Virus record (IMG/VR): IMGVR_UViG_3300032282_000614
Location: 1-26,195 of that record
Length of the DNA: 26,195 nt
Source of the DNA: a virus
Direction: 5' to 3' (one strand)
In this document: positions 1 through 23,228 of the stretch, one piece after another
How the letters are laid out: each line of letters starts with the position of its first letter
How positions within the stretch are numbered: position 1 is the stretch's first letter
Position numbers and translations under genes: made by a program
Notes under the pieces: model-generated
What the model was told of the DNA's origin: nothing
Databases searched by the model: none
The model's input: the letters and a program-made list of their open reading frames with translations, nothing else

Positions 1-1
1 C

Positions 2-697
2 GACTACGCCGAGAACGTCGAGCGCCACTGCCCGGACGGGGACGTGTTCAGCCCGACCATTGATAGCAAACGCTCGAAGGGCGAAGGCGAGATCGAGTGC
101 GTGTGCCCAATCTGCGACATCAAGAACGTCTTCAGGTCGCGGCCCAACCCCGATGGCTACGGCGTCACCAAGAGCGGGTATTTCTGCGACCTCGACGGCG
201 TCGAGATCGAAGGCGAGCACGGCCCGATCCCGGCTCACTTCGGCAGGCGGTGCCGGGCGCGTGACGAGCGCGAGCGCCAGTGCGGCTACCGATGGACTAG
301 CAAGGAATGCAAGCAGTGCGAGGAGCCGAACGACATCGCGGCGCGGCACTGCATACGCTGCAAGGCCGAGCTGGTGGACCCGAACGAGAAGCTGCGCATC
401 GCCTTCAAGGAAAGGAAACGCGACCCGTACCAGACGCAGCGCGATGTGGTGCTGGCGTGGGCCGTGAAGCCGTCTGTGAGCCGCAGTGGGAACCAGCAAT
501 ACAGCATCGACGTGACGACGCCCTACCGTCACTTCAGGTTCTGGGTGATGCGCAACCCGAAGTGGCAGAACCAGATCGCCGACTACAATCGTTTGGTCGC
601 GCTCAACGGTCGCCCGCCGAAGACGATCACCTACCGCAAGGACGACCAGTATTTTAAGGTCTATGCTTACAACGAGGCAGCCGATGAATCTCCCTGA
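2..697 (+). CDS. Phage DNA helicase, C-terminal part (cut by window edge)
   Basis: The frame is open to the left edge, so the start and the ATPase core lie outside the window. What remains is about 231 residues. The region has several CxxC-type pairs (CPICDIKN, CKQCEEPNDIAARHCIRCK) and the phrase GRRCRA, followed by a DPNEKL segment. I recognise this as the zinc-ribbon-containing C-terminal extension of phage DEAD/DEAH-box (SF2) helicases, in which a KECxxC...NDIAARxCxxCKxExxDPNEKL block is typical. The likely role is duplex unwinding during phage replication or recombination. The next gene, a VRR-NUC nuclease, starts 14 bases before this stop, an arrangement common in phage replication modules. 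No Walker motifs are visible because they would lie upstream, so the helicase call rests on the C-terminal signature alone. Confidence 0.7.
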   Translation, partial: DYAENVERHCPDGDVFSPTIDSKRSKGEGEIECVCPICDIKNVFRSRPNPDGYGVTKSGYFCDLDGVEIEGEHGPIPAHFGRRCRARDERERQCGYRWTSKECKQCEEPNDIAARHCIRCKAELVDPNEKLRIAFKERKRDPYQTQRDVVLAWAVKPSVSRSGNQQYSIDVTTPYRHFRFWVMRNPKWQNQIADYNRLVALNGRPPKTITYRKDDQYFKVYAYNEAADESP

Positions 698-1094
698 TGA
701 TATCCCCGTCTTCGGCGACAGGTCCTTCAGGGGCAAGTGCCCCACGGAGAACATCGAGCAGGTGACGTTCTTCAACCGGATCCGCAAGAAGTACCCTGAC
801 ACATGGGGCAAGATCGCCTTCCACCCGCGCAACGAAGGCAAGCGAACGCACCTTCAAGCCGCGCACCAAACAGCAGAAGGGATGACCAGTGGAACAGTTG
901 ACATTGTTGTGCCCGGAAGACGGACCTTCGTATGTGAGCTCAAAAGGCGAGACCACACGCAGTCGGTCTGGCAAAAAGACCAAGAGGAGTACCTCCGAAT
1001 TGCTCGCAAGATGGGAGCATTCGCCTGTGTCGCACTCGGGGTCGAGGCGGCAGAAGAAGCCTTCGCCAAGTATTTGGAAGAATCGTCCGAGTGA
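684..1094 (+). CDS. VRR-NUC domain nuclease
   Basis: This 136-residue protein fits a stand-alone virus-type replication-repair nuclease (VRR-NUC, PD-(D/E)XK fold), a family that includes phage Holliday-junction and flap-type nucleases. Visible fold residues are Glu23 and Gln26 in the first helix, the HPRNEG segment (about 48-53), Gly67 and Asp73 in TSGTVDIVV, and the catalytic ELK triplet (Glu85, Lys87). The ATG at 684 was chosen over an upstream ATG at 663 because GAGG lies 6 bases before it and the length fits single-domain members. It overlaps the helicase gene by 14 bases, so the two are probably translationally coupled. It likely processes branched DNA during replication or packaging. 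The family call is firm. Substrate preference cannot be read from sequence. Confidence 0.85.
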   Translation: MNLPDDIPVFGDRSFRGKCPTENIEQVTFFNRIRKKYPDTWGKIAFHPRNEGKRTHLQAAHQTAEGMTSGTVDIVVPGRRTFVCELKRRDHTQSVWQKDQEEYLRIARKMGAFACVALGVEAAEEAFAKYLEESSE

Positions 1095-1122
1095 CGATGT
1101 CCTCGCCGTTCTCAATGGGCGC

Positions 1123-1311
1123 ATGCCCCTAGAGAAAGCCCACCCGGCCATCCAGTCGGTCATGCAGAGGCTGTTGTACGAGGCTGCATGTGAAATACTA
1201 ACAGCAGAAAAGGAGAAAAGGTCATTGATGTTACAAAAAGTTCCAGAGTTAATCAGACCACACGTCGAGGCAGAGGTCTGGCGTGTATGGAGGATGAGGA
1301 ATGAGGTTTGA
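1123..1311 (+). CDS. Small hypothetical protein, start uncertain
   Basis: I do not recognise this protein. From the ATG at 1123 it has 62 residues, is predominantly helical in character and is rich in Glu and Arg (AEKEKRSLMLQKVPELIRPH), with no membrane segment or cysteine motif. It follows the nuclease gene and overlaps the next gene by 11 bases. The frame stays open leftward to a GTG at 889 with GAAGG in front, which would give 140 residues. However, that extra stretch lies wholly inside the nuclease gene and is Ser/Arg/Lys-rich low-complexity protein, as expected of a shadow frame. The Shine-Dalgarno match before 1123 is weak. Alternative starts in this frame include a TTG at 1000. Confidence 0.5.
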   Translation: MPLEKAHPAIQSVMQRLLYEAACEILTAEKEKRSLMLQKVPELIRPHVEAEVWRVWRMRNEV

Positions 1312-1552
1312 GATCATCATGAACATGCCTGTAAGGGGCAATGACACCCAAAATCCTGCGTTGATACACAGGTTGGTTGTCGAGTACCCATGCACTGGGG
1401 TCATAGACTTCTTGAACCAGACCATCGACGATGACTTCATCATCGTGGAGGAGTTCTTCCCAGACCCAGCTACTAAAACGTACAAAAGCCACGGGCTTAT
1501 CGCCCTCAACCGCCGATATGTCGGCAAGATCAAAGAATGGGATAGAAAATGA
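1301..1552 (+). CDS. Hypothetical protein (83 aa)
   Basis: I do not recognise this protein. It has 83 residues and no membrane segment or cysteine motif. It contains an acidic, mixed alpha/beta stretch (TIDDDFIIVEEFFPDP) and ends in a basic KEWDRK. The start is well supported: GAGGATGAGGA lies directly in front of the ATG. It overlaps the preceding gene by 11 bases, and its stop overlaps the start of the next gene in an ATGA arrangement, so it belongs to the same translationally coupled operon. The context of nuclease, DUF6378-like protein and regulator suggests an early accessory function, which is inference only. Confidence 0.7.
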   Translation: MRFEIIMNMPVRGNDTQNPALIHRLVVEYPCTGVIDFLNQTIDDDFIIVEEFFPDPATKTYKSHGLIALNRRYVGKIKEWDRK

Positions 1553-1935
1553 ACCACAAGGACGTCCTCTACAAAGCAGCTGAAATCCTCAACAAACGCG
1601 GCGAAACCTACGGAGATATTGATCCCTTGTTCGAGAACGCAGCGAAGCTCGCATCCATCATCACCGGCAAAGAGTTCAGCAAATACGACATTTCTGTGGT
1701 GATGGAATCCATAAAACTGGCGAGACGCCGGGCGAATTTTAAGCTTCCCGATCACTACATCGACAATGTAAACTATACCGCGTTCTCGGCGCAGTTTGCC
1801 CTGAACGATACCGAAGGAGAGAAGGTCGCTGCCGTGGCAACGCAGCCTGTTGAAATTGGAGAACCCTATGTTCAAGAAATCAGCGTACACTTTGACGGGA
1901 CTAGCACTACTGTCCTCGCCAGCCCTAGCCACTGA
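1549..1935 (+). CDS. DUF6378-like phage protein
   Basis: This 128-residue protein opens with an ILNKRGETYGD segment, followed by helices with AKLASIITGKEFSKYDISVVMESIKLAR (quoted as a landmark in two parts: AKLASIITGKEF and SKYDISVVMESIKLAR) and then a YIDNVNYTAFSA helix. I recall this R-x-x-x-YGD / K-L-A-R / D-N-x-x-Y pattern from the phage family DUF6378. Its all-helical make-up resembles MazG-type nucleotide pyrophosphohydrolases, but the acidic metal-binding motif of MazG is not clearly present, so I do not call an enzyme. It starts in an ATGA overlap with the upstream gene, and its last 68 bases overlap the transglycosylase gene, an unusually long overlap here. The C-terminal 35 residues look unstructured and may be shaped by that overlap. 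Confidence 0.65.
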   Translation: MNHKDVLYKAAEILNKRGETYGDIDPLFENAAKLASIITGKEFSKYDISVVMESIKLARRRANFKLPDHYIDNVNYTAFSAQFALNDTEGEKVAAVATQPVEIGEPYVQEISVHFDGTSTTVLASPSH

Positions 1936-2401
1936 AGAAGACGCAGGCGCTTTCTGGCGTGAAGAAGCCATGAAAAGCGAGTTCGTTAAGGTCAACAACG
2001 TCCCTCAAAAAAAGAAGGTCGTGATTGACCAGATCACCGCAGTGGTGAAGAAGGAGCTAGGCGAACAATGGGTCGCCAGTGCGCTCAAGATCGCAAAGGT
2101 CGAGAGCGGCTACAACTGCAAGGCGACAGGTCCTAAGACCCGTCACGGTCACGCAAAAGGTGTCTTTCAATTGATTGACTCGTCTGCGCGCTCGCTGGGT
2201 TTCGAACCATCGAAAATGTACGATTGTAATGAGAACATCGCGGCAGGTGTCGCCCACATGAAGGTCTGCATCAGGTATGGCGTGAAAGACCCGCGTGGGA
2301 TGGCAGCTTGCCACGTTGCTGGCTGGAACCACTGGAACGTAAAGCTGGCTCGCCAGCATGAGAGGTACAAGCAGCGTTATATTCACATGGCTACAGCATA
2401 A
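1868..2401 (+). CDS. Secreted lytic transglycosylase (SLT/lysozyme-like)
   Basis: This 177-residue protein begins with a clear Sec signal peptide: MFKK, a hydrophobic run GLALLSSPALA, and a probable cleavage after ALA at residue 21. The mature part carries a transglycosylase SLT-like domain with candidate catalytic Glu79 in AKVESGYN, then AKGVFQLID (about 97-104, matching the G-x-x-Q motif of the family), and a late MAACHVAGWN motif. It would cleave peptidoglycan glycan strands from the periplasmic side. The ATG at 1868 has GGAGA five bases upstream, and starting there places the signal peptide at the very N-terminus. An upstream TTG at 1850 would add six residues. It lies in the rightward module, far from the lysis cassette. 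It could be a virion-independent wall-remodelling enzyme or an accessory lysis factor. Confidence 0.85.
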   Translation: MFKKSAYTLTGLALLSSPALATEEDAGAFWREEAMKSEFVKVNNVPQKKKVVIDQITAVVKKELGEQWVASALKIAKVESGYNCKATGPKTRHGHAKGVFQLIDSSARSLGFEPSKMYDCNENIAAGVAHMKVCIRYGVKDPRGMAACHVAGWNHWNVKLARQHERYKQRYIHMATA

Positions 2402-2425
2402 AAAGAGGGGGCGCACTGCCCCCTC
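2400..2425 (-). terminator. Intrinsic-type terminator for leftward transcription
   Basis: Bases 2405-2412 and 2418-2425 are perfect inverted repeats (8 bp, GAGGGGGC with GCCCCCTC) around a 5-base loop. Read on the minus strand, the hairpin is followed at once by five T residues (2404-2400), the classic intrinsic terminator form. On the plus strand the hairpin is preceded by A-run and followed by CAATCAACG, so it lacks a T tract for rightward termination. It sits just after the transglycosylase stop codon. The direction implies that leftward late transcripts that run past the gene convergence at 3.9 kb end here. A weak rightward attenuator role cannot be excluded. Confidence 0.6.
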
Positions 2426-2443
2426 CAATCAACGAGGCCAAAC

Positions 2444-2770
2444 ATGGAAAACGACATAAAAATACTGTGGGACAAGGGTTTAACGATGTCCCAGATCGCC
2501 AAGGAAATGGGCGTCACGGTCGGCGTCATAGCAGGCAAAATTAACAGACGCAGGGAGATGTTCGCCCCCCGCACCCCGCAAAAGCACCAAGCATACAGGC
2601 CAATCGGAAACTCAAGAGCGATCCTAGCCTTAAATACAAACACATGCAGGTTCATCACCAATGATGATACGTCGCGCCCTAAGTATTGTCTCGCGCCTGT
2701 TAAGCGCAGGTCGTACTGCGAAGAACACGCGGCTCTGTGCTATCTACCGAGGAGAAAAGCCGATGACTGA
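2444..2770 (+). CDS. GcrA-like cell-cycle transcription regulator
   Basis: This 108-residue protein has the GcrA plan. Residues 1-40 form a helix-turn-helix-like DNA-binding region (ILWDKGLTMSQIAKEMGVT, then GVIAGKINR, matching the SASQIA...NAVIGKxHR signature). A linker follows, and the C-terminal CRF...YC...YCEEH cluster (Cys68, Cys82, Cys92, His95) could bind zinc. In Caulobacter, GcrA binds the sigma-70 RNA polymerase holoenzyme and activates promoters carrying CcrM-methylated GANTC sites. A phage copy could redirect or mimic this programme. At about 108 residues it is shorter than the chromosomal protein (about 170), mainly through a shorter linker. GAGG lies before the ATG. It follows the hairpin at 2405-2425 and overlaps the next gene by 8 bases. 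The host inference of Alphaproteobacteria comes largely from this gene. Confidence 0.85.
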   Translation: MENDIKILWDKGLTMSQIAKEMGVTVGVIAGKINRRREMFAPRTPQKHQAYRPIGNSRAILALNTNTCRFITNDDTSRPKYCLAPVKRRSYCEEHAALCYLPRRKADD

Positions 2771-3038
2771 CAGGCTCATGAAGCATGGCTGGCACTGGAG
2801 CTTCGGATGGCTGCGCAGGCCAGAGCTCGATCAGGACGGCCTGTATTGCTACGAGCAGCCAGACGGAGACCTGATCCTCAGCGGTAGGCCAGCGCACAGG
2901 ATCGCCATCTATCTTGACTGTCGCATGGATGAGGACACGGGCGACGAGTACGCCTGCTTCGCACCAATCCCACGGAGGCCTATGAGACATGATCCATCAG
3001 CTAAACCCACCGCTGCCCGTCGAAACGCCAAAAGGTAA
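2763..3038 (+). CDS. Hypothetical protein (91 aa)
   Basis: I do not recognise a family. From the ATG at 2763 the protein has 91 residues. The N-terminal part is rich in Trp, His and Gly (KHGWHWSFGWLRRPELDQDG). Beta-type segments follow (YCYEQPDGDLILSG and RIAIYLDCRMDEDTGDEYAC), and the tail is basic and Ala/Arg-rich. The start is supported by GAGGAGA upstream and by the 8-base overlap with the regulator gene. The same frame extends upstream to 2661, but that would overlap the regulator by over 100 bases. The following gene starts within its last 50 bases. It probably acts in the same early operon, and nothing in the sequence says how. Confidence 0.65.
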   Translation: MTDRLMKHGWHWSFGWLRRPELDQDGLYCYEQPDGDLILSGRPAHRIAIYLDCRMDEDTGDEYACFAPIPRRPMRHDPSAKPTAARRNAKR

Positions 3039-3183
3039 GGCGCTCTGCGTGGCGTGGATCGACTACGGCCCAGAGCACCATCTGCTCTGGGTCTGCTTCC
3101 AGAACGACAGCCGAGAGTGCTGGTGCTGGGCGAACCCAGACATCAGGGCTCAAACCAACCCAAGCATGGGGAGACCACATTGA
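2989..3183 (+). CDS. Conserved small phage protein (64 aa)
   Basis: This 64-residue protein opens with MIHQLNPPLPVETPKGKAL and continues with IDYGPEHHLLWVCFQNDSRECW and WANPDIRAQTNPS. I recall a small protein with this opening from several alphaproteobacterial phages and prophages, where its function is unknown. It has no membrane segment. The ATG at 2989 has GGAGG about 10 bases upstream. It overlaps the preceding gene by 50 bases, and its TGA stop overlaps the TTG start of the glycosyltransferase gene (TTGA), so the two may be translationally coupled. The family recognition is from memory of the N-terminal phrase and should be verified by similarity search. Confidence 0.65.
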   Translation: MIHQLNPPLPVETPKGKALCVAWIDYGPEHHLLWVCFQNDSRECWCWANPDIRAQTNPSMGRPH

Positions 3184-3905
3184 TACACTTCATCTGGCTC
3201 ACGCAGCACGGCAGCAGGCCGTTCTCATACATCAACGCGCTGGCCGTGCGAGCGGCTGCGACCCGGCACTACAAGGATCCGATCATCATGTGGTGCAACG
3301 AGATCCCGAAGAACAACCCGAACTGGTATATGGTGAAGGACTTGTTCGAGGTCAGGCCAATCGAGATGCCGTCCGAGATCGGCGGCGTACCGCTGGAGCA
3401 TGTCCAGTACAAGGCAGACGTGCTAAGGCTCCAGATCCTCCAAAAGCATGGTGGGATATACCTAGACACCGACAGCCTGCTCCTAAAGGGCCTGCACCCC
3501 TTCACGGACAAGGAGATGGTGCTGGCGCGGGAGAGCCCAGATTCCATCGCCATGTCGCCGATCATCTGCAAGCCCAATGCGGACTTCGTGAACGTCTGGC
3601 TACAGCGGATTCCGCAGGCGCTGGAGGTTGGGACGTGGGCTTATCACGCCGTGAATTTACCTGTGGAAATCGCCAAATATCATGCCTGCGACATAAGACC
3701 GCAGGCCGAGTTTTTTCCGTTTGATCTCCGGCACAACTATCTGTTTGACGATGGCCGAGCCGACGAGCACATGCAGCGCATGGGCGATCCCTACGCGCTG
3801 CATGTCTACGAGACATATTGGGCAGGCTACCTAAACGGAGTTGACGAGACCTATATGAAGAAGCGCGACACGTTGTTCGCGCGTCTCTTCAGGGACCTCT
3901 GTTGA
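3180..3905 (+). CDS. GT32-type glycosyltransferase with DXD motif
   Basis: This 241-residue protein is a GT-A fold glycosyltransferase of the GT32 type. The signature runs from YKADVLRLQILQKHGG (about 77-92) into IYLDTDSLLLKGL, where DTD at 96-98 is the metal and nucleotide-sugar binding DXD motif. The N-terminal IPKNNPNW and IHFIW phrases also fit. The chosen start is a TTG at 3180 (overlapping the upstream stop) because a GGGGAG Shine-Dalgarno sequence lies about 7 bases before it and the conserved IHFIWL segment begins there. A longer frame from 3054 would start inside the previous gene. The substrate is unknown: host envelope sugars, phage DNA or virion proteins are all possible. It is the last rightward gene, and its final 17 bases overlap the end of the convergent late gene. 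Confidence 0.85.
   Translation: MIHFIWLTQHGSRPFSYINALAVRAAATRHYKDPIIMWCNEIPKNNPNWYMVKDLFEVRPIEMPSEIGGVPLEHVQYKADVLRLQILQKHGGIYLDTDSLLLKGLHPFTDKEMVLARESPDSIAMSPIICKPNADFVNVWLQRIPQALEVGTWAYHAVNLPVEIAKYHACDIRPQAEFFPFDLRHNYLFDDGRADEHMQRMGDPYALHVYETYWAGYLNGVDETYMKKRDTLFARLFRDLC
3889..3905. other. Convergent gene overlap, 17 bases
   Basis: The minus-strand stop (TGA, bases 3891-3889) and the plus-strand stop (TGA, 3903-3905) each lie inside the other gene, so the two transcription modules collide here. I see no inverted repeat with a T-run in either direction within about 100 bases of the junction, so termination must happen elsewhere or be Rho-dependent. Confidence 0.85.
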
Positions 3906-5937
3906 TTGTTAGCGGGGGCAACTGGTAGTCAGGCGTCCCTGCATACTCTCCGGCCTCTTCAGCAACCAGACCAGCGCCACGAACCGTTTTGCGAGCCGTG
4001 CTGGCCTGCCTCTTGGCGTTCTCAGTGGCGAAGTTCTCAAGGGCATTGACGGCGCTACGGATTTCAGCCGGGGAACCAGAACGCAAGATCTTGCCAATGG
4101 CGTTCGCCCGAGCTTCTGGGATCAGTACGTCGCCGGACAGGATGTTGGTCATGGCCTTCCAGATGCCAGACGGTTTGCCTTGAGCGACATCTGCCGCAAT
4201 GCCGAGCAGATGAAAGTCACTGGAATCCAGATCCTTGCCACCAGCAATGCGCCGAGCGGTTGCAGGGCCGCCCGTGATCCTGCTTGCGTTCTTGAATAGG
4301 CGAGCTTCGGCCTCAAGGCTCTCCTCAAGGAGGCGGGCGGATGTCGGGTTCGGCATGATCGTGCGCAAGACCTCGCGACGGTCCTCAATGTTCTGGCCTA
4401 CGCGCTTGGTGACGTCGCTGGTGTCGGCGGATCCGAAGATGTTGTCGCGCATATTCTTGAGCGCCCCGACACGGTAAGCTTGACGCTCGCCAGCGCCCAT
4501 GTCTTTCCATTCGCGCTTCAGAAGCTCTGGGTCTGCGGTGCTGAACTTGCGACCGTTCTCCAGCGCCTCCACAATCTCCTTGTCGCCCTTGTAGACGGCG
4601 CGGGCCGCCTTGAAGGCATCAACATCCTGATCAAGAATCTCACCAATCTTGCGGCGCATCGCAAGAGCGTTGTTGGATAAAGGAGATCCGGCTCGCGACT
4701 CCGTAGAGGCCTGATACAAGCCGCGCATGATGTAGTCCCACTGCTTGACCTCTGGGATCTCCTCAAAGGATTTCATGGACTGCCCGGGGACAGTGCTGAC
4801 TTCTTTGGTTCCAAATTTGCCTAAAGCACCGTCGCCGTCTGAAGCGTAAAGCTTTTTTGCGGAAGAGATAGCCTCGGGGTATGCCTCTTTGACTGTATCC
4901 ATCACTGACTGAAGTTTAGCCTGCGCCTGCGTTGGGATCTTGGCTTGGTAGGCTGCTTCATAGAACGGATCAGCATTGCTGCGCAGTGCCTTGATGAGGG
5001 CCTCTTCGTTTTCGTAAAAATCGCCTTTGACGCCCATGTTTTCACGGGTGGCCTTGTTGACGCGCGCCCGTTGCCCAGCCTGCCGATTTTCAACGTCTAA
5101 CCCAATATCAATGCCCGCCTGCCCCGGACGCTGTGCGATGACCTCAGCGCGGTTCGTGAGGGCAGGGGCCACGTCAAAGAGCTGCGCGGGTGCGCCAGCA
5201 TTGTACATGCGCTGCCACTCGGCACCTGCCTGCTGAGGCGTCATGCCGCTGCGCTCCAGATCCTGTAGGACACGGGACTTGGCGACATCCTCGGACATCT
5301 TCGGGCTAAAACGCTCCATGACGCCCGTGACTGCGGGCGAAAGAACCTCAGCGCCTTTGGTAAGGCCGCCGCCAACAACAGCTCCAACGCCAGCGCCTTG
5401 AGCCGCAGACTTGAGACGGCTGCCAATGTCCTCAGCAGAGAAAAGTTGAGTTGAATCGCTTTCTCCTAAGCCGCTGAGGCCACCTTGAATCGCGCCTGTC
5501 TTGACGCCCTGCACCACAGCAGGTGACAAAATGGGCCTAGCCACCCTGCTGGCGACCTGAGCGCCCTTGGCGATGCCAAGGCCGGGAACGAACATGGTGG
5601 GGACGCTGCCTGCAAGCTCGGAGGCGATAGCCGTCGCCGGGTACTGACCTTCGAACTGCTTCTTTGCCTCACGCTCTTCCTTGAGGGCTTGCTCGTAGGG
5701 GATGCCCTCAGATCTGGCGCGAGCGCCCGCAATGAGCTCATCGCTCCAGTTGAAGGTCAGCCCTGACGCAGCCGAACGGCCAACGCCCTTCGCAATATCG
5801 CCCCACGACATGTCCTTTTTCTGGGGCATGTCAGCAAGAGGGTCGCTCGTCTTCTTCCGGTTCTGCTGCAAAAAGGCGGTTATTTCCTCGCCAGTCGCAT
5901 CGTCTGGGAAGCTGAAACCTTCGACAATTTTAGCCAT
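3889..5937 (-). CDS. Large internal virion/ejection-like protein (682 aa)
   Basis: This 682-residue protein opens with IVEGFSFPDDATGEEITAFLQ, a form common at the start of podovirus internal virion proteins (a short beta stretch then a P-D-x-A-T-x-E-E-I helix). Residues about 105-215 are Gly/Ala-rich and hydrophobic (for example GAGVGAVVGGGL), suggesting membrane-interacting helices. The remainder is long and helical with many charged residues. The likely role is in the virion interior, ejected with DNA into the host, as for T7 gp14-16-type proteins. It is the last of four consecutive large Ala/Gly/Gln-rich genes. A G-run Shine-Dalgarno lies upstream of the ATG. The stop lies inside the convergent GT32 gene. 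No catalytic motif is evident. The role is inferred from composition and position. Confidence 0.6.
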   Translation of the reverse strand: MAKIVEGFSFPDDATGEEITAFLQQNRKKTSDPLADMPQKKDMSWGDIAKGVGRSAASGLTFNWSDELIAGARARSEGIPYEQALKEEREAKKQFEGQYPATAIASELAGSVPTMFVPGLGIAKGAQVASRVARPILSPAVVQGVKTGAIQGGLSGLGESDSTQLFSAEDIGSRLKSAAQGAGVGAVVGGGLTKGAEVLSPAVTGVMERFSPKMSEDVAKSRVLQDLERSGMTPQQAGAEWQRMYNAGAPAQLFDVAPALTNRAEVIAQRPGQAGIDIGLDVENRQAGQRARVNKATRENMGVKGDFYENEEALIKALRSNADPFYEAAYQAKIPTQAQAKLQSVMDTVKEAYPEAISSAKKLYASDGDGALGKFGTKEVSTVPGQSMKSFEEIPEVKQWDYIMRGLYQASTESRAGSPLSNNALAMRRKIGEILDQDVDAFKAARAVYKGDKEIVEALENGRKFSTADPELLKREWKDMGAGERQAYRVGALKNMRDNIFGSADTSDVTKRVGQNIEDRREVLRTIMPNPTSARLLEESLEAEARLFKNASRITGGPATARRIAGGKDLDSSDFHLLGIAADVAQGKPSGIWKAMTNILSGDVLIPEARANAIGKILRSGSPAEIRSAVNALENFATENAKRQASTARKTVRGAGLVAEEAGEYAGTPDYQLPPLTINRGP

Positions 5938-17809: not shown

Positions 17810-20800
17810 TTACACTCCTGCAATCTGCGCTTTCAGCGCGTCAAGTTCAGCCTTGAGTTCTTGGATAGCCTTGACCAAGACTGGTATCATTTTGGTCTCG
17901 GTGATCTTCAGATGCTCATCTTCCAAGTCGTCAGCGATCAGCAAGTTCTTGTCAATCGCGCCAAAGGACTTTTCAAGGGCGATAACATCTTGCGCCAAGA
18001 AACCGAGGGTCTGGCGCGTGTCCTTCTTGCTGCCATCCGAAACGCCATCCTCATATCTGGCGCGGTCGTCCCACTTGTAGCTGATGGGGCGCAGTGCCTT
18101 GATGAAGTCTAGACCGTATGGGGCATCGACAACATCCGTCTTGTCACGGGCGTCAGAAGTGACCGTCCAAGCAATCTTGATGTAGGCGTTCGTGTGGCTG
18201 GTGTTACCAAACGTAATCCAGTTGCTGTTAGTTCCGATGGTTCCAATACCGCCTGTGGCATTGCCAGAGCTGTTCCCGATAGCGATATTGTTTGAACCAG
18301 TCGTCGCGCTGTCAGCGGCTTGAAGGCCAATATAGACATTGCCCCCTGACCCGGTGTTACTATAACCGGCATTGTAGCCAATGTTGACGTTGCTGCCACC
18401 GGTTAAATTGGAATACCCAGCTTGAAAACCGAGGTTAACATTGTTGTTACCCGTGGTGTTCAATAAACCTGCGGCATATCCAATAGAGGTATTTTGAACA
18501 CCTGTTGTTGTATTTTGAAGAGCAGCGACACCAACGGCAACATTATTGTAGCCTGTCGAGTTTGCATAAAGAGCATAGTATCCGATAGCCACATTGTCTC
18601 CACCAGTGGTATTAAGCTGCATGGCTTGAGCGCCCATGGCAGTGTTAGAACTTCCAGTGGTATTTGCAGCTAAAGCCCCATTACCTATACCCGTATTGTT
18701 AGTCCCGGTGGTATTGGCCCCAAGTGCGCTCTTGCCGACAGCGACGTTTTGAACGCCAGTTGTATTGGCCTGTAGGGCGCTAACGCCAACAGCAACATTA
18801 TCATAGCCAGTAGTATTGTAATAAAGGGCACTAAGCCCAACCCCAACATTGAATGCAGCAGTTGTATTGTTTAAGAGGCACTGATTACCAATCGCCGTGT
18901 TTCCAGCACCACTACTGTTAGCATTAAGAGCCTGATACCCAACGGCAGTATTGCTATAGCCGGTGGTGTTGCTGTACAGAGCTAAATACCCAAGAGCGGA
19001 GTTTTGATAACCCGTGGTGTTAAACTGCAAGGCCGAAGCGCCAACAGCAAGATTGCTTGCGCCTGTGGTGTTAGCGTTAAGGGCATTAACGCCAAGAGCA
19101 GTGTTCCCATTCGCAGTCGTACTAGACGACAAAGACCCATAGCCAAAAGCAGCGTTGTTGGACCCAGTTGTATTAGCACCAAGGGCATATGTGCCAGAAG
19201 CGGTGTTGTTAACGCCGGTGGTGTTTTGATACAGGGCTTGAAAGCCAACAGCGACATTGCCATAGCCAGTGGTGTTGCTATAAAGCGTATTTACACCAAC
19301 AGCGGTGTTGTTATAGCCCGTTGTATTCTGCGTAAGAGATAGAGAGCCCACAGAAGTGTTAGAAGCACCTGTCGTTGTGAACTGCTGAGAAACATATCCG
19401 ATGGCAGTGTTATTGTCAGTCCTTGAAAGCTGAAGTGCAGCCACACCAACCGCGGTGTTTTGAACGCCCGTGACATTTGAATTGAGGGAGTTCAGACCGA
19501 CCGCGATATTATCTCTACCAGTTGTGTTGTTGTAGAGAGAGGACGGACCAATCGCGATAAGATTGCCACCCGTTGTGTTTGAGCGGGCTGCTTCAGCGCC
19601 AATAGCGATATTGCTTGAGGCATTGTTTGTGTACAATGCGCCATTGCCAAGGGCAATATTACCAGAGCCAGTGGTGTTGGTTGTCAGCGCGCTAGAGCCA
19701 ACAGCAGTGTTGTTGTATCCGGTTGTGTTGCCTGCCAGCGCGCTAGGGCCAATAGCAATATTGCTGTACCCAATCGTGTTGTTGTACATGGCAAAATTGC
19801 CAATGGCGATATTGGGCGAGCCCGTAGTATTGAGGCGCAAAGCAACACGGCCAATGGCTATATTGTCGCTTGCCAAGTTCTGTTCCATAGCGGCAGAACC
19901 GATTGCGGTGTTATAATTGCCACTAATATTTAAAGTCAGAGCAGAAGGGCCAATCGCCACGTTCTCTACACCAGTAGTGATTGATGGCGCAGCATTATAC
20001 CCAACGCCAACATTGCTGTTGCCAGTAGTGATAGCCCCTAGCGCACTCTGCCCCATTGCAGTGTTATAACCGCCGGTTGTGGCAAAATAGAGGGAGGCAT
20101 AGCCAAATGCGGAATTAGATTGAGCAGTGGTATTGCTATAGAGCGACCCCTCGCCAAAGGCGCAATTATAATTCGCAGTCGTATTGGACCGGAGGGCGTT
20201 CAAGCCGAAGGCATTGTTATAACTGCCAGTGGTGTTGGAGTTCAGCGCATTCGCGCCGAAGGCGTTGTTGTTATTGCCGGTAGTATTGGCGAAAAGCGTA
20301 CCAGCGCCGACTGCAACGAGTGTCGCGCCAGTGGTGTTTTTGTTGAGCGAGTTAACGCCAACGGCGACGTTGTTCGCGCCAGTAGTGTTGGAGATCATCG
20401 CGCTCAAGCCAACGGCCACATTGTAGCTGCCAGTGGTATTTGTGGTCAGCGCCTGCAATCCAAGCGCAGTGTTGCCCGTGCCAGTAGTATTGGCAACGAG
20501 GGCCTGCCAACCGAACGCCGAATTGCTGGAGCCAGTCGTATTGGCGGCCAACGCAGACTGTCCCAATGCTGAATTTAGGGTGCCGGTAGAATTTGACGAT
20601 AACGCGGCGCTGCCCACAGCAGTGTTTTGATACCCAGTGGTGTTGGCATAAAGCGCATTTAGGCCAATGCCAGTGTTGCCGTAGCCAGTGGTATTGTTGG
20701 CGAGCGCAATGCGTCCAAATGCGGTATTTTCATACCCCGTAGTGTTTGACCCAAGGGCATTAAATCCGACAGCCGTATTAGTGTATCCGGTAGTATTTGA

Positions 20801-21160
20801 ATAAAGTGCCGTATAGCCGACAGCGACATTTTGATACCCAGTCGTGTTCGCATTGAGAGCCTGATACCCAACTGCCGTATTCGTCGCCACAGACCCCGCG
20901 CCAAGGCCGACGCGCAGGGTGTTCATGGACGAGTCGCCACTTACGACGGAGAACTTGTAGCCAGAGACGATGGATGAGATGCCGACATTCTGCGAAGCGT
21001 CAACGAGGACTGCCGCCACACCCGCTGTAGCGATTCCAAGTTGATTTGTCCCAGCAAGGTAAATGCCGGTGGTGTTGCCGCCCAAGAACGAATGGCTGGG
21101 CGTCCCAGCAGTCCCCTTCGGAGCAAGGATCTGCTTGCTGTTTTGAGCGGCGGTGGTCAT
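17810..21160 (-). CDS. Giant tail fibre: YadA-like beta-roll repeats plus S74 chaperone domain
   Basis: This 1116-residue protein has three parts. The N-terminus (1-90; HSFLGGNTTGIYLAGTN and LGIATAGVAAV) is a common entry of phage tail fibres. From about 104 to 967, about 51 copies of a 17-residue unit follow (pattern N-T-T-G-x-x-N-x-A-x-G-x-x-A-L-x-x), with three units one residue short. The N-x-A-(V/I/L)-G core is that of the left-handed parallel beta-roll heads of YadA-type trimeric adhesins. The C-terminus (about 999-1116) is an S74 intramolecular chaperone: TSDARDKTDV with candidate catalytic Ser1002, LRPISYKWDD, GFLAQDV and a final coiled coil. In this family the chaperone trimerises the fibre and cuts itself off before the Ser. 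It probably recognises the host surface. The repeat DNA is nearly without matching codons, so the tandem copies are old. Confidence 0.9.
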   Translation of the reverse strand: MTTAAQNSKQILAPKGTAGTPSHSFLGGNTTGIYLAGTNQLGIATAGVAAVLVDASQNVGISSIVSGYKFSVVSGDSSMNTLRVGLGAGSVATNTAVGYQALNANTTGYQNVAVGYTALYSNTTGYTNTAVGFNALGSNTTGYENTAFGRIALANNTTGYGNTGIGLNALYANTTGYQNTAVGSAALSSNSTGTLNSALGQSALAANTTGSSNSAFGWQALVANTTGTGNTALGLQALTTNTTGSYNVAVGLSAMISNTTGANNVAVGVNSLNKNTTGATLVAVGAGTLFANTTGNNNNAFGANALNSNTTGSYNNAFGLNALRSNTTANYNCAFGEGSLYSNTTAQSNSAFGYASLYFATTGGYNTAMGQSALGAITTGNSNVGVGYNAAPSITTGVENVAIGPSALTLNISGNYNTAIGSAAMEQNLASDNIAIGRVALRLNTTGSPNIAIGNFAMYNNTIGYSNIAIGPSALAGNTTGYNNTAVGSSALTTNTTGSGNIALGNGALYTNNASSNIAIGAEAARSNTTGGNLIAIGPSSLYNNTTGRDNIAVGLNSLNSNVTGVQNTAVGVAALQLSRTDNNTAIGYVSQQFTTTGASNTSVGSLSLTQNTTGYNNTAVGVNTLYSNTTGYGNVAVGFQALYQNTTGVNNTASGTYALGANTTGSNNAAFGYGSLSSSTTANGNTALGVNALNANTTGASNLAVGASALQFNTTGYQNSALGYLALYSNTTGYSNTAVGYQALNANSSGAGNTAIGNQCLLNNTTAAFNVGVGLSALYYNTTGYDNVAVGVSALQANTTGVQNVAVGKSALGANTTGTNNTGIGNGALAANTTGSSNTAMGAQAMQLNTTGGDNVAIGYYALYANSTGYNNVAVGVAALQNTTTGVQNTSIGYAAGLLNTTGNNNVNLGFQAGYSNLTGGSNVNIGYNAGYSNTGSGGNVYIGLQAADSATTGSNNIAIGNSSGNATGGIGTIGTNSNWITFGNTSHTNAYIKIAWTVTSDARDKTDVVDAPYGLDFIKALRPISYKWDDRARYEDGVSDGSKKDTRQTLGFLAQDVIALEKSFGAIDKNLLIADDLEDEHLKITETKMIPVLVKAIQELKAELDALKAQIAGV
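18155..18157 (-). other. Predicted S74 self-cleavage site codon (Ser1002)
   Basis: The TCT codon (minus strand) for the Ser of V-T-S-D-A-R-D-K marks the expected cut site of the S74 chaperone. Cleavage just before it would free a C-terminal fragment of about 115 residues and leave a mature fibre of about 1001 residues. The Ser/Lys pair typical of this family is present (Ser1002; Lys follows five residues later in R-D-K). Actual cleavage is inferred from the family. Confidence 0.6.
18260..20851 (-). repeat. Coding tandem repeat, about 51 units of 51 bases
   Basis: Inside the giant fibre gene the DNA consists of about 51 tandem 51-base units (three are 48 bases) by hand alignment of the translation. 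The units share protein pattern but vary freely at third codon positions, so they diverged under protein-level selection and were not recently amplified. Each unit begins with the Asn codon of N-T-T-G or a variant. An additional partial unit precedes at about 20890. The plus strand of this stretch carries several open frames that are mere shadows. Confidence 0.85.
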
Positions 21161-21512: not shown

Positions 21513-23228
21513 TCAGCCCATCGCTACTGCATAGATCAGTGAGTTCAGATCCGGCCCCGTAGGGCCCGTGGGCCCGGTCGGCCCTGTGGGTCCGGTCGGA
21601 CCCGTTACGCCCTGTATCCCCTGCGCCCCGGTGGGGCCGGTGGGCCCCGTGGGTCCAGTCGGCCCTGTTACGCCCTGTACTCCCTGCGGGCCTGTGGGGC
21701 CTGTCGGGCCTGTCGGGCCCTGTATCCCCTGCGGGCCGGTTGGCCCTGTGGGGCCCGTAGGACCCGTGACGCCCTGCGGGCCAGTAGGTCCGGTCGGACC
21801 AGTAGGGCCAGCCACGGTAGAGGCAGCGCCTGTCGGCCCGGTAGGTCCGGTTGGCCCCGTTGGCCCAGTCGGCCCGGTGGGGCCGAGCTGCGTGTACAAA
21901 ACCTGTGTTGCAGTCACAATCACAGACGGTGAGACGGGCGATGTGGGTGATGTCCCTGCGGAAATCGTTTGAAGACTGACTGCCGTGTTATCAACGCGCC
22001 ACATCAGTTGCAGATAGTCACCAGCTGCAAGCTTCAAAACGTAGTTCCACGACACGATGTTCAAGCCATCAATGCCGCCATGTTTGTTGGTGATTGCCAC
22101 TTCGCCAGTGGTATCTGGAACGTCACCCGTGCTGCCACTGTCGTTCTTACGCAGCCAAACCTTAGCATCGTGAATCTGCGTGTCTGTGTTCACAAACTGT
22201 GCTGAAAACTGAATGTTATAAACACCTGCATAAGCAAAGGTGATCCGATCACCGCTAGTGATGCTGACACCGTTGCTGTCAGTATCCGTGCTATTGATCT
22301 GCATCACATAAGCGGTGGTCGTATTAGCCGCCGTCTGATTGGTCGTATCCCAGAACGAGCCCCAATAGCCCAGCGCGCCGCCTGCGCCCGTCGCGCCGGT
22401 CGCTCCGGTCGGTCCCGTAGACCCTGTCGGCCCGGTCGGTCCCGTGGGGCCTGTGGGCCCCGGAACGGTCGAAGACGCGCCTGTGGGCCCCGTAGGGCCG
22501 GTAGGACCCGTCGGACCCGTGACGCCTTGGATGCCCTGCAAACCCGTGGGGCCTGTGGGTCCGGTCGGACCCGTGGGGCCAGTAGGACCCGTAGGGCCCG
22601 TGACGCCCTGTATGCCCTGCAAACCCGTGGGGCCTGTGGGCCCAGTCGGCCCCGTAGGGCCGGTGGGGCCCGTGGGGCCCGTGGGGCCGACAACGCCCTG
22701 CACCCCTGTCGGTCCCGTGGGCCCAGTGGGGCCTTGGATACCCTGCAAGCCTGTAGGTCCGGTAGGCCCGGTAGGTCCGGTGACACCTTGGATCCCCTGC
22801 AAGCCCGTGGGGCCTGTAGGCCCCGTAGGCCCCGTAGGGCCGACAACGCCCTGCACCCCAGTGGGCCCGGTCGGACCAGTCGGGCCCGTGGGGCCAGTTA
22901 TGCCTTGAACCCCCTGTAACCCCGTGGGCCCAGTGGGCCCGGTCGGCCCTGTAGGGCCCGTGGGCCCGGTGACGCCTTGGAGACCCTGCAAGCCCGTGGG
23001 CCCGGTCGGTCCTGTGGGGCCAATTAAGCCCTGCACACCCGTGGGCCCCGTGGGGCCGGTGGGGCCAGTGGGGCCGACATATTGTAGAAATTGACCGTAG
23101 AACGCGCGCTTAGTGATCCCGCCTTGAACGATAATTGTCGTATCAGACGCCGTTGGCGCATCCGCCAGCGGCAACTGGGTGATCTTCGTAGGGATCAGGT
23201 TTGTCGGAACGCGCGGATTGTTCGTCAT
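21513..23228 (-). CDS. Collagen-like (GPT) fibre with central jelly-roll-like domain
   Basis: This 571-residue protein has four parts. An N-terminal fibre entry (1-51; [14 protein letters not shown]-type sequence and [14 protein letters not shown]) is typical of phage tail fibres. Collagen block 1 (52 to about 283) has about 75 G-x-y triplets, mostly G-P-T with inserted GLQGIQGVT and GVQGVV units. A 165-residue beta-rich domain (about 284-448; [40 protein letters not shown]) looks like a C1q/TNF-type jelly roll. Collagen block 2 has about 35 triplets. The end is [12 protein letters not shown]. Pro at x and Thr at y are typical of collagen-like phage and BclA-type proteins; such Thr residues are glycosylated in Bacillus spore BclA. 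Trimer formation is expected. The gene starts in an ATGA overlap with the upstream gene. Confidence 0.9.
21552..21884 (-). repeat. Collagen block 2 (about 35 Gly-x-y triplets)
   Basis: This block follows the jelly-roll-like domain. It is composed of G-P-T triplets with G-P-Q and G-V-Q/G-V-T insertions. It begins with six G-P-T triplets, then the interruption AASTVA, closely resembling the ASSTVP interruption near the end of block 1. It ends just before the short C-terminal tail [12 protein letters not shown]. Confidence 0.8.
22380..23075 (-). repeat. Collagen block 1 (about 75 Gly-x-y triplets)
   Basis: The coding DNA consists of triplets of nine bases for G-P-T with variable third bases (codons GGN CCN ACN), interrupted by GLQGIQGVT-like units. 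A non-collagen interruption, ASSTVP, occurs close to the domain boundary. The varied codon use suggests old repeats kept at protein level. Minus-strand triplets read on the plus strand in one frame as G-P-V triplets, which creates a false open frame. Confidence 0.85.

Follow-up and report, generated by a model that had tools for sequence, protein, structure and literature searches.

The window analyzed here, a viral record 26,195 bases long, encodes a GcrA family protein composed of an N-terminal HTH and a C-terminal Cys/His SID (Table 1). We place at roughly 0.6 the probability that the gene product is a phage cofactor of RNA polymerase that would dock on region 2 of sigma-70 and for which the DNA-reading arm would be dispensable. 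This reading draws on homology in both domains, a conserved gene place, relatives that have a SID by itself, purifying selection on such lone SIDs, and the absence of T-R-N from the recognition helix. We infer sigma-70 binding from homology and predicted fold; whether it would activate or compete, and the host, are matters of inference as well.

According to one review, bacterial GcrA binds sigma region 2 by its SID while its DBD reads methylated DNA (PMC7403470), and PMC7987155 describes GcrA as engaging sigma-70 ahead of the promoter. Phage GcrA has been published since 2012 (phiCbK) and features in PMC3556154, PMC9437464, and PMC11309003, so that a phage-borne GcrA alone is not new. In searches of open-licence papers, we found no title or abstract opening that reports stand-alone phage SIDs.

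The window gene, its surroundings, and GcrA in isolated phages

The window is probably a fragment of a larger genome, since the nearest isolates found, the Caulobacter phages RW, GB2A, RLK, and KcrB, have genomes of ~62 kb each; the window tail-tube protein is 64% identical to theirs. The left 3.9 kb runs rightward, and the remainder forms a leftward block that includes structural and lysis genes. In the latter part of the window, a 1116-aa tail protein built of many short repeats (17810-21160) lies not far from a collagen-like fibre gene (21513-23228).

Table 1. Features of the gcrA region (window coordinates, except the last row, which belongs to a SID-only relative).
Feature	Coordinates	Strand	Basis
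DUF6378 gene, conserved upstream neighbour	1549..1935	+	Pfam, synteny
SLT transglycosylase (lysozyme-like) gene, upstream neighbour	1868..2401	+	Pfam SLT 1.5e-8, synteny
Strong RNA hairpin between SLT gene and gcrA	2405..2425	+	Folding; similar stem, other loop in many relatives
gcrA-type gene, 108 aa	2444..2770	+	Pfam PF07750, PDB GcrA matches, AlphaFold2 model
N-terminal HTH DBD, residues 1-40, recognition helix TVGVIAGKINRR	2444..2563	+	PF07750 profile 10-43, own DBD profile, 5yiv_A
Mosaic stretch in gcrA	2539..2689	+	40/111 columns differing from contig L003 (window 1-5118)
Short linker, 13 residues between own DBD and SID profile matches	2564..2602	+	
C-terminal SID, C-x13-C-x9-C-x2-H cluster	2603..2767	+	PF07750 profile 87-150, own SID profile, 5yix_B
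91-aa gene of unknown function, start overlaps gcrA stop	2763..3038	+	
DnaA domain-IV-like HTH gene downstream of SID	L112:3618-4175		Profile match

The gcrA-type frame opens with an ATG, and its product matched PF07750 at 42.2 bits (E 1.4e-10; curated cut-off 26.9). PDB sequence matches were led by C. crescentus GcrA (7ye1_G, E 2.5e-7), followed by its DBD (5yiu_A, 0.0097) and SID (5yix_B, 0.054), bearing out the N-terminal DNA-binding signature and C-terminal Cys/His cluster that the initial annotation had read from the letters. Our own profiles gave 65.2 bits for the DBD, with the window sequence being one of the profile's seeds, and 85.9 bits for the SID, of whose profile it is a member. 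Moreover, a gene 85% identical to the window gcrA was found at the same gene place in another contig.

Like Caulobacter crescentus GcrA (PF07750; PDB 5YIX, 5YIV, 7YE1, 7YE2), the protein has an HTH followed by a Cys/His SID. It differs from cellular GcrAs in having T-V-G for T-R-N and in its linker, which we regard as shortened because the PF07750 match falls in two stretches and skips the profile middle; its ~13 residues compare with a median of 52 in cellular proteins and of 42 (range 6-73) in phage DBD+SID proteins. The initial annotation had stressed that both signatures fit into only 108 residues. That length stands, but not its unusual compactness: in the 114 alphaproteobacterial genomes searched, some frames of 114-125 aa hold the two parts together, and 76 of these genomes had a PF07750 match at E<=0.001. 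The same search also exceeded the cut-off in the control genome of Sulfolobus acidocaldarius.

An AlphaFold2 model of the window protein, built with 37 aligned phage sequences (mean pLDDT 86.4, pTM 0.47), predicted a three-helix HTH at residues 2-35 and a C-terminal part from residue 57 on. The top PDB row in Foldseek was GcrA (7ye2_G, E 0.22), closely followed by unrelated HTH proteins. VIA-align superposed the model on the GcrA DBD (5yiv_A; Z 5.6, 1.1 Å, 38 residues, 42% identity) and SID (5yix_B; Z 5.8, 2.0 Å, 43 residues); many HTH chains unrelated to GcrA equalled or outranked the GcrA chains. The GcrA assignment is thus carried by sequence matches rather than by structure matches.

The SLT gene upstream is common to SID-only relatives (those whose gene has a SID and no DBD) and many DBD+SID relatives. 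The leader hairpin, which is GC-rich and has no U-run, lies directly upstream of gcrA in both forms. Across loci L105-L146 its stem was kept with varying loops (UUCG, UUUG, GUAA, UGCG, UUAA, UACG), and among loci up to L146 it was absent from L132, L136, and L142. All 17 distinct leaders of SID-only genes at the window gene's own place had an 8-bp stem, and folding z-scores for four leaders were -2.9 (window), -2.5, -1.5, and -2.1.

In other phages, mostly alphaproteobacterial ones, GcrA is represented by phiCbK gp222, DMCA, MW202485, and genes annotated as 'cell cycle regulator' in giant phages of Brevundimonas. The phiCbK and DMCA genes (183 and 214 codons including the stop) keep both parts, and their annotated neighbours differ from those in the window; an annotated adenine-specific methyltransferase lies near gcrA in DMCA. 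The MW202485 GcrA (L088:1368-1928) seems to have two DBD-like repeats before its SID (28.3 bits in total versus 17.2 for the best one). Among the nearest isolates, RW carries a GcrA DBD in RW_GP061 (33.7 bits), a gene annotated as hypothetical at the end of a rightward replication block, in a place like that of the window gcrA. Unlike the window gene, RW_GP061 has no SID, and a weak SID-like match was found in another gene, RW_GP049 (14.6 bits with Pfam, below the cut-off; 10.1 bits with our own profile). By these profile matches, GcrA is probably split in RW, with DBD and SID on separate genes. Both stretches of the RW record, 29325-29642 (solid DBD half) and 18371-18934 (weak SID half), are annotated as hypothetical.

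Stand-alone SID genes

When viral contigs were scanned with eight aligned SIDs, 125 relatives were obtained, and the best 80 of them were classed using a DBD profile built from 14 sequences, the window among them. In 50 of these 80, DBD and SID share one frame (the SID of one, L171, is broken); the other 30 had a SID only, a proportion that is not an unbiased share because the query asked for SIDs. Similarly, the invariance of most SID residues is partly built in, as they sit in two patterns used by the scan. An earlier Pfam GcrA search of 40 related records had given 13 at E<=0.01 and 6 above the cut-off, the rest including many short contigs. One candidate relative (L004, 33%) was dropped, there being no PF07750 match in its record.

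The SID-only genes encode 55-97 aa from the nearest ATG. Searching all six frames over as much as 900 bp ahead of each of the 30 genes gave no stray DBD of at least 10 bits (best 8.1 bits), nor did any at E<=0.5 turn up in six SID-only records scanned whole, in pieces (16.7-49.7 kb). RW has a DBD, as does every one of the eight DBD+SID records that were scanned, the window being one of them. Specifically, 24 of the 30 SID-only loci (21 distinct DNA sequences, several loci being near-copies) were at the window gene's own place and are called window-type here; in all 24, the SLT match ended 44-55 bases before the SID start. The remaining six belong to a second family with a different short N-terminus and adjoin a DUF6378 gene instead of the SLT gene; a further scan with one of their SIDs gave 14 loci, including five of these six contigs. 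Four long relatives had no DNA-reading half at the window gene's locus.

The window-type stand-alone SIDs are under purifying selection. Within this group (21 distinct sequences), dN/dS was below 1 in all 35 close SID-only pairs that had dS<1 and three or more synonymous changes, with a median of 0.13. At E<=0.01, Pfam GcrA matched 37 of 38 SIDs, a set that includes 26 SID-only proteins; two SID-only examples scored singly gave 27.9 and 34.0 bits, above the cut-off. A profile of the 38 SIDs matched 5yix_B in the PDB at E 4.5e-7. An AlphaFold2 model of one stand-alone SID (L112; pLDDT 80.2) had five Foldseek matches at E<=10, the first three being the GcrA chains 7ye2_G, 7ye1_G, and 5yix_B, with probabilities of 0.95-0.99 and weak E-values of 0.056-0.18. 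VIA-align placed this model on 5yix_B over 45 residues (Z 5.7, 2.0 Å). Sequence and selection outweigh the model, because AlphaFold2 may have learned GcrA structures in training, and on them we regard the stand-alone SID as a real protein. Identity to the C. crescentus SID was 24-26% over the aligned part (window and L112 models), so the sigma interface in the phage SIDs is predicted rather than proved.

Among the 114 cellular genomes, four (G053, G093, G101, G108) had SID-like matches with no DBD partner in frame, one of them below the cut-off and one with an internal stop. Prophages or full-length genes with low scores might explain these matches, which mean that phages may not be the only place where stand-alone SIDs occur.

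We then considered the history of the locus. In the SLT protein tree (48 rows), the window and L104 were placed inside the SID-only phages on starred branches, and a single clade of the 24 SID-only rows was rejected (p-AU 0.0016), which speaks against a single origin of the SID-only genes. The SID tree (54 columns) did not reject a single SID-only clade (p-AU 0.298 for 24 rows, 0.0785 for all 30); it drew the window, L104, L114, and L124 within the SID-only group, and its starred branches ask for three changes. The tree of the downstream 91-aa gene had mostly no resolved branches. The DBD may have been regained, it may have been lost several times, or whole cassettes may have been exchanged between phages. 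The stretch from the SLT gene to the 91-aa gene looks like an exchangeable cassette because the distance to the latter differs between forms: in the 23 DBD+SID loci where it was found, it lay at most 48 bases from the gcrA end in 21 and 208 bases away in two, and the six SID-only loci with this gene have it 1.0-2.5 kb further downstream. In line with such exchange, 40 of the 111 columns in which the window differed from L003 over 5.1 kb clustered within 151 bases of gcrA.

Of 14 window-type SID-only records, 12 carry a gene for a DnaA-type HTH (PF08299) downstream of their SID, with scores that mostly fall short of the Pfam cut-off; the other two (G180, G185) end <0.9 kb past the SID gene. Elsewhere, it was found in 0/3 records of the second SID-only family, 5/18 DBD+SID records, 1/5 with weaker GcrA, and weakly in RW, for a total of 19/41, five of the 19 being above the family cut-off. 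The window had no PF08299 match. In four whole records (G007, G008, G010, G015), the gene starts ~0.7 kb beyond the SID. We did not retain it as a substitute for the lost DBD, the link being an association within one clade.

The recognition helix and GANTC sites

The recognition helix begins with T-R-N in all of the best 80 of 526 cellular GcrA relatives, an invariance slightly favored because one of the six patterns used in the cellular scan began with its N. These residues would read the methylated site. Taking T-R-N as the mark of a methyl-GANTC reader, the window protein lacks it, having T-V-G. In 48 of 50 aligned phage DBDs (51 given), the middle residue is R or K, with V found in the window and L104 only; by eye, phiCbK GcrA is also without T-R-N. 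Judging from its sequence, the window HTH has probably drifted away from methyl-GANTC reading, and it may read something other than methyl-GANTC. Compared with L104, its closest relative, the window DBD has one non-synonymous and three synonymous differences; these are too few for a statistical test, and the arm seems kept in the window lineage with no sign of decay.

GANTC occurred 41 times in the window versus 87.7 expected from trinucleotides (ratio 0.47), and versus a mean of 65.1 (sd 6.3) when synonymous codons were shuffled, with no count as low in 300 shuffles; the comparison with expectation that the initial annotation had proposed shows depletion, not enrichment. Ratios were 0.51, 0.37, 0.43, 0.18, 0.74 (G169), 0.47, and 0.42 in seven other DBD+SID records and 0.47, 0.49, 0.59, 0.35, 0.91 (G167), and 0.51 in six SID-only records with no DBD anywhere. 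RW had 0.36 and a 40-kb stretch of phiCbK 0.24, with 0.88 and 0.78 in the two controls, lambda and Pseudomonas phage D3; counts covered part of the length in G172, G170, RW, phiCbK, lambda, and D3. Depletion is not uniform, as seen in G167 and G169, and CCNGG was depleted alike (71 versus 150.9 expected, 0.47), such that avoidance is not unique to GANTC. Nevertheless, these phages commonly avoid GANTC, irrespective of the GcrA form that they carry. This avoidance hints at CcrM hosts, and we saw no evidence of GANTC promoters: with depletion both with and without a DBD, GANTC enrichment was rejected as a sign of phage promoters. One of the 41 sites was intergenic (16825, 95 bases before a glycosyltransferase-like gene), and neither of two extended YGAKTCG sites was, both lying within genes; this mapping of sites to promoters, likewise proposed at the outset, gave no association and is weak as evidence because the window has only 322 intergenic bases.

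The initial annotation saw no CcrM gene in the window, and PF01555, an N6/N4 methyltransferase profile, agreed, with no match there at E<=0.1. A methyltransferase of the phage's own was rejected as a partner, PF01555 matching 0/1 (window) and 1/39 related records (G169), on a profile that does not cover all methyltransferases and with most related records being fragments.

Possible roles of the phage protein

In the mechanism we propose, the SID would dock on region 2 of the host sigma-70, as the GcrA SID does in Caulobacter, and, once docked, would change the promoter preference of the holoenzyme, keep host GcrA off sigma, or both. The HTH would be an optional arm that adds DNA contact. Because selected SIDs survive with no DBD, sigma gripping appears to be the part these phages need. 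However, against a dispensable arm, the window gene keeps its DBD, as do 50 of the 80 classed relatives (best 80 of 125). The initial annotation had offered two outcomes, of which tuning of host transcription is the better supported as far as it would run through sigma-70, whereas control by methylation state, on which the other outcome (the phage driving its own promoters) depends, is not supported, given the T-V-G helix, the depletion of GANTC, the DBD-less relatives at the same locus, and, as a weak point, the single intergenic GANTC site.

A bolder form, which we hold tentatively, is that phages have cut GcrA, probably more than once, to a free-standing sigma-70 clamp of ~60-80 residues that would commandeer or inhibit the host polymerase while reading neither DNA nor its methylation, the DNA-reading part being a swappable module. 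The module part rests on a DBD that is present in the window, absent in neighbours, and probably a separate gene in RW, and on the DnaA-type HTH gene slightly downstream in window-type SID-only phages. It is rather doubtful, though it overlaps in its odds with the cofactor reading, of which it is a sub-case, that the protein acts as a competitor of host GcrA. Here, it would fill the region-2 site with no useful DNA reading, turning off the host GcrA regulon, halting the cell cycle, and freeing resources for the phage. A SID kept alone under selection would suit such a role, and phage sigma-binding proteins that divert the host polymerase are a known kind, but the DBD is kept in those same 50 of the best 80 loci, and the sigma-2 binders in the review that describes them are activators (PMC7403470).

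An orthodox mimic of GcrA, one that reads GANTC methylated by CcrM close to promoters of the host or the phage and switches on host S-phase genes, is favored by the presence of both domains, the Caulobacter hosts of the nearest isolates, and the GANTC depletion, with its hint of CcrM hosts; moreover, such a role has been proposed for phiCbK gp222 (PMC3556154), and methylation-dependent binding has been shown for GcrA of several bacteria (PMC3667746). We nevertheless consider it unlikely given T-V-G in place of T-R-N, close relatives with no DBD, GANTC with no promoter association in the window, and a published scan reporting GcrA sites in alphaproteobacterial phages with no positional bias (PMC9437464). 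Finally, the gene would be a functionless passenger, an acquired host gcrA in the course of losing domains, if the domain loss in relatives, the mosaic stretch, and the broken SID of L171 reflected decay. The dN/dS of 0.13 in stand-alone SIDs, the conserved gene place, and the leader hairpin kept in many relatives make this very improbable.

Returning to the cofactor reading, the selected stand-alone SIDs make the role of a SID with no DBD directly testable with ~60-residue proteins. If they inhibit, they would be natural tools for switching off the GcrA regulon; if they activate, sigma-2 binding alone would suffice. Genetics should be possible as well, since RW and related isolates from Caulobacter encode a GcrA DBD and may encode a SID in a gene of its own. 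To our knowledge, RbpA, Crl, AsiA, and gp39 do not belong to the GcrA family. All four also act by binding a sigma domain, RbpA and Crl being activators that bind sigma-2, while the phage proteins AsiA and gp39 target sigma-4 (PMC7403470), unlike the region 2 expected for the window SID.
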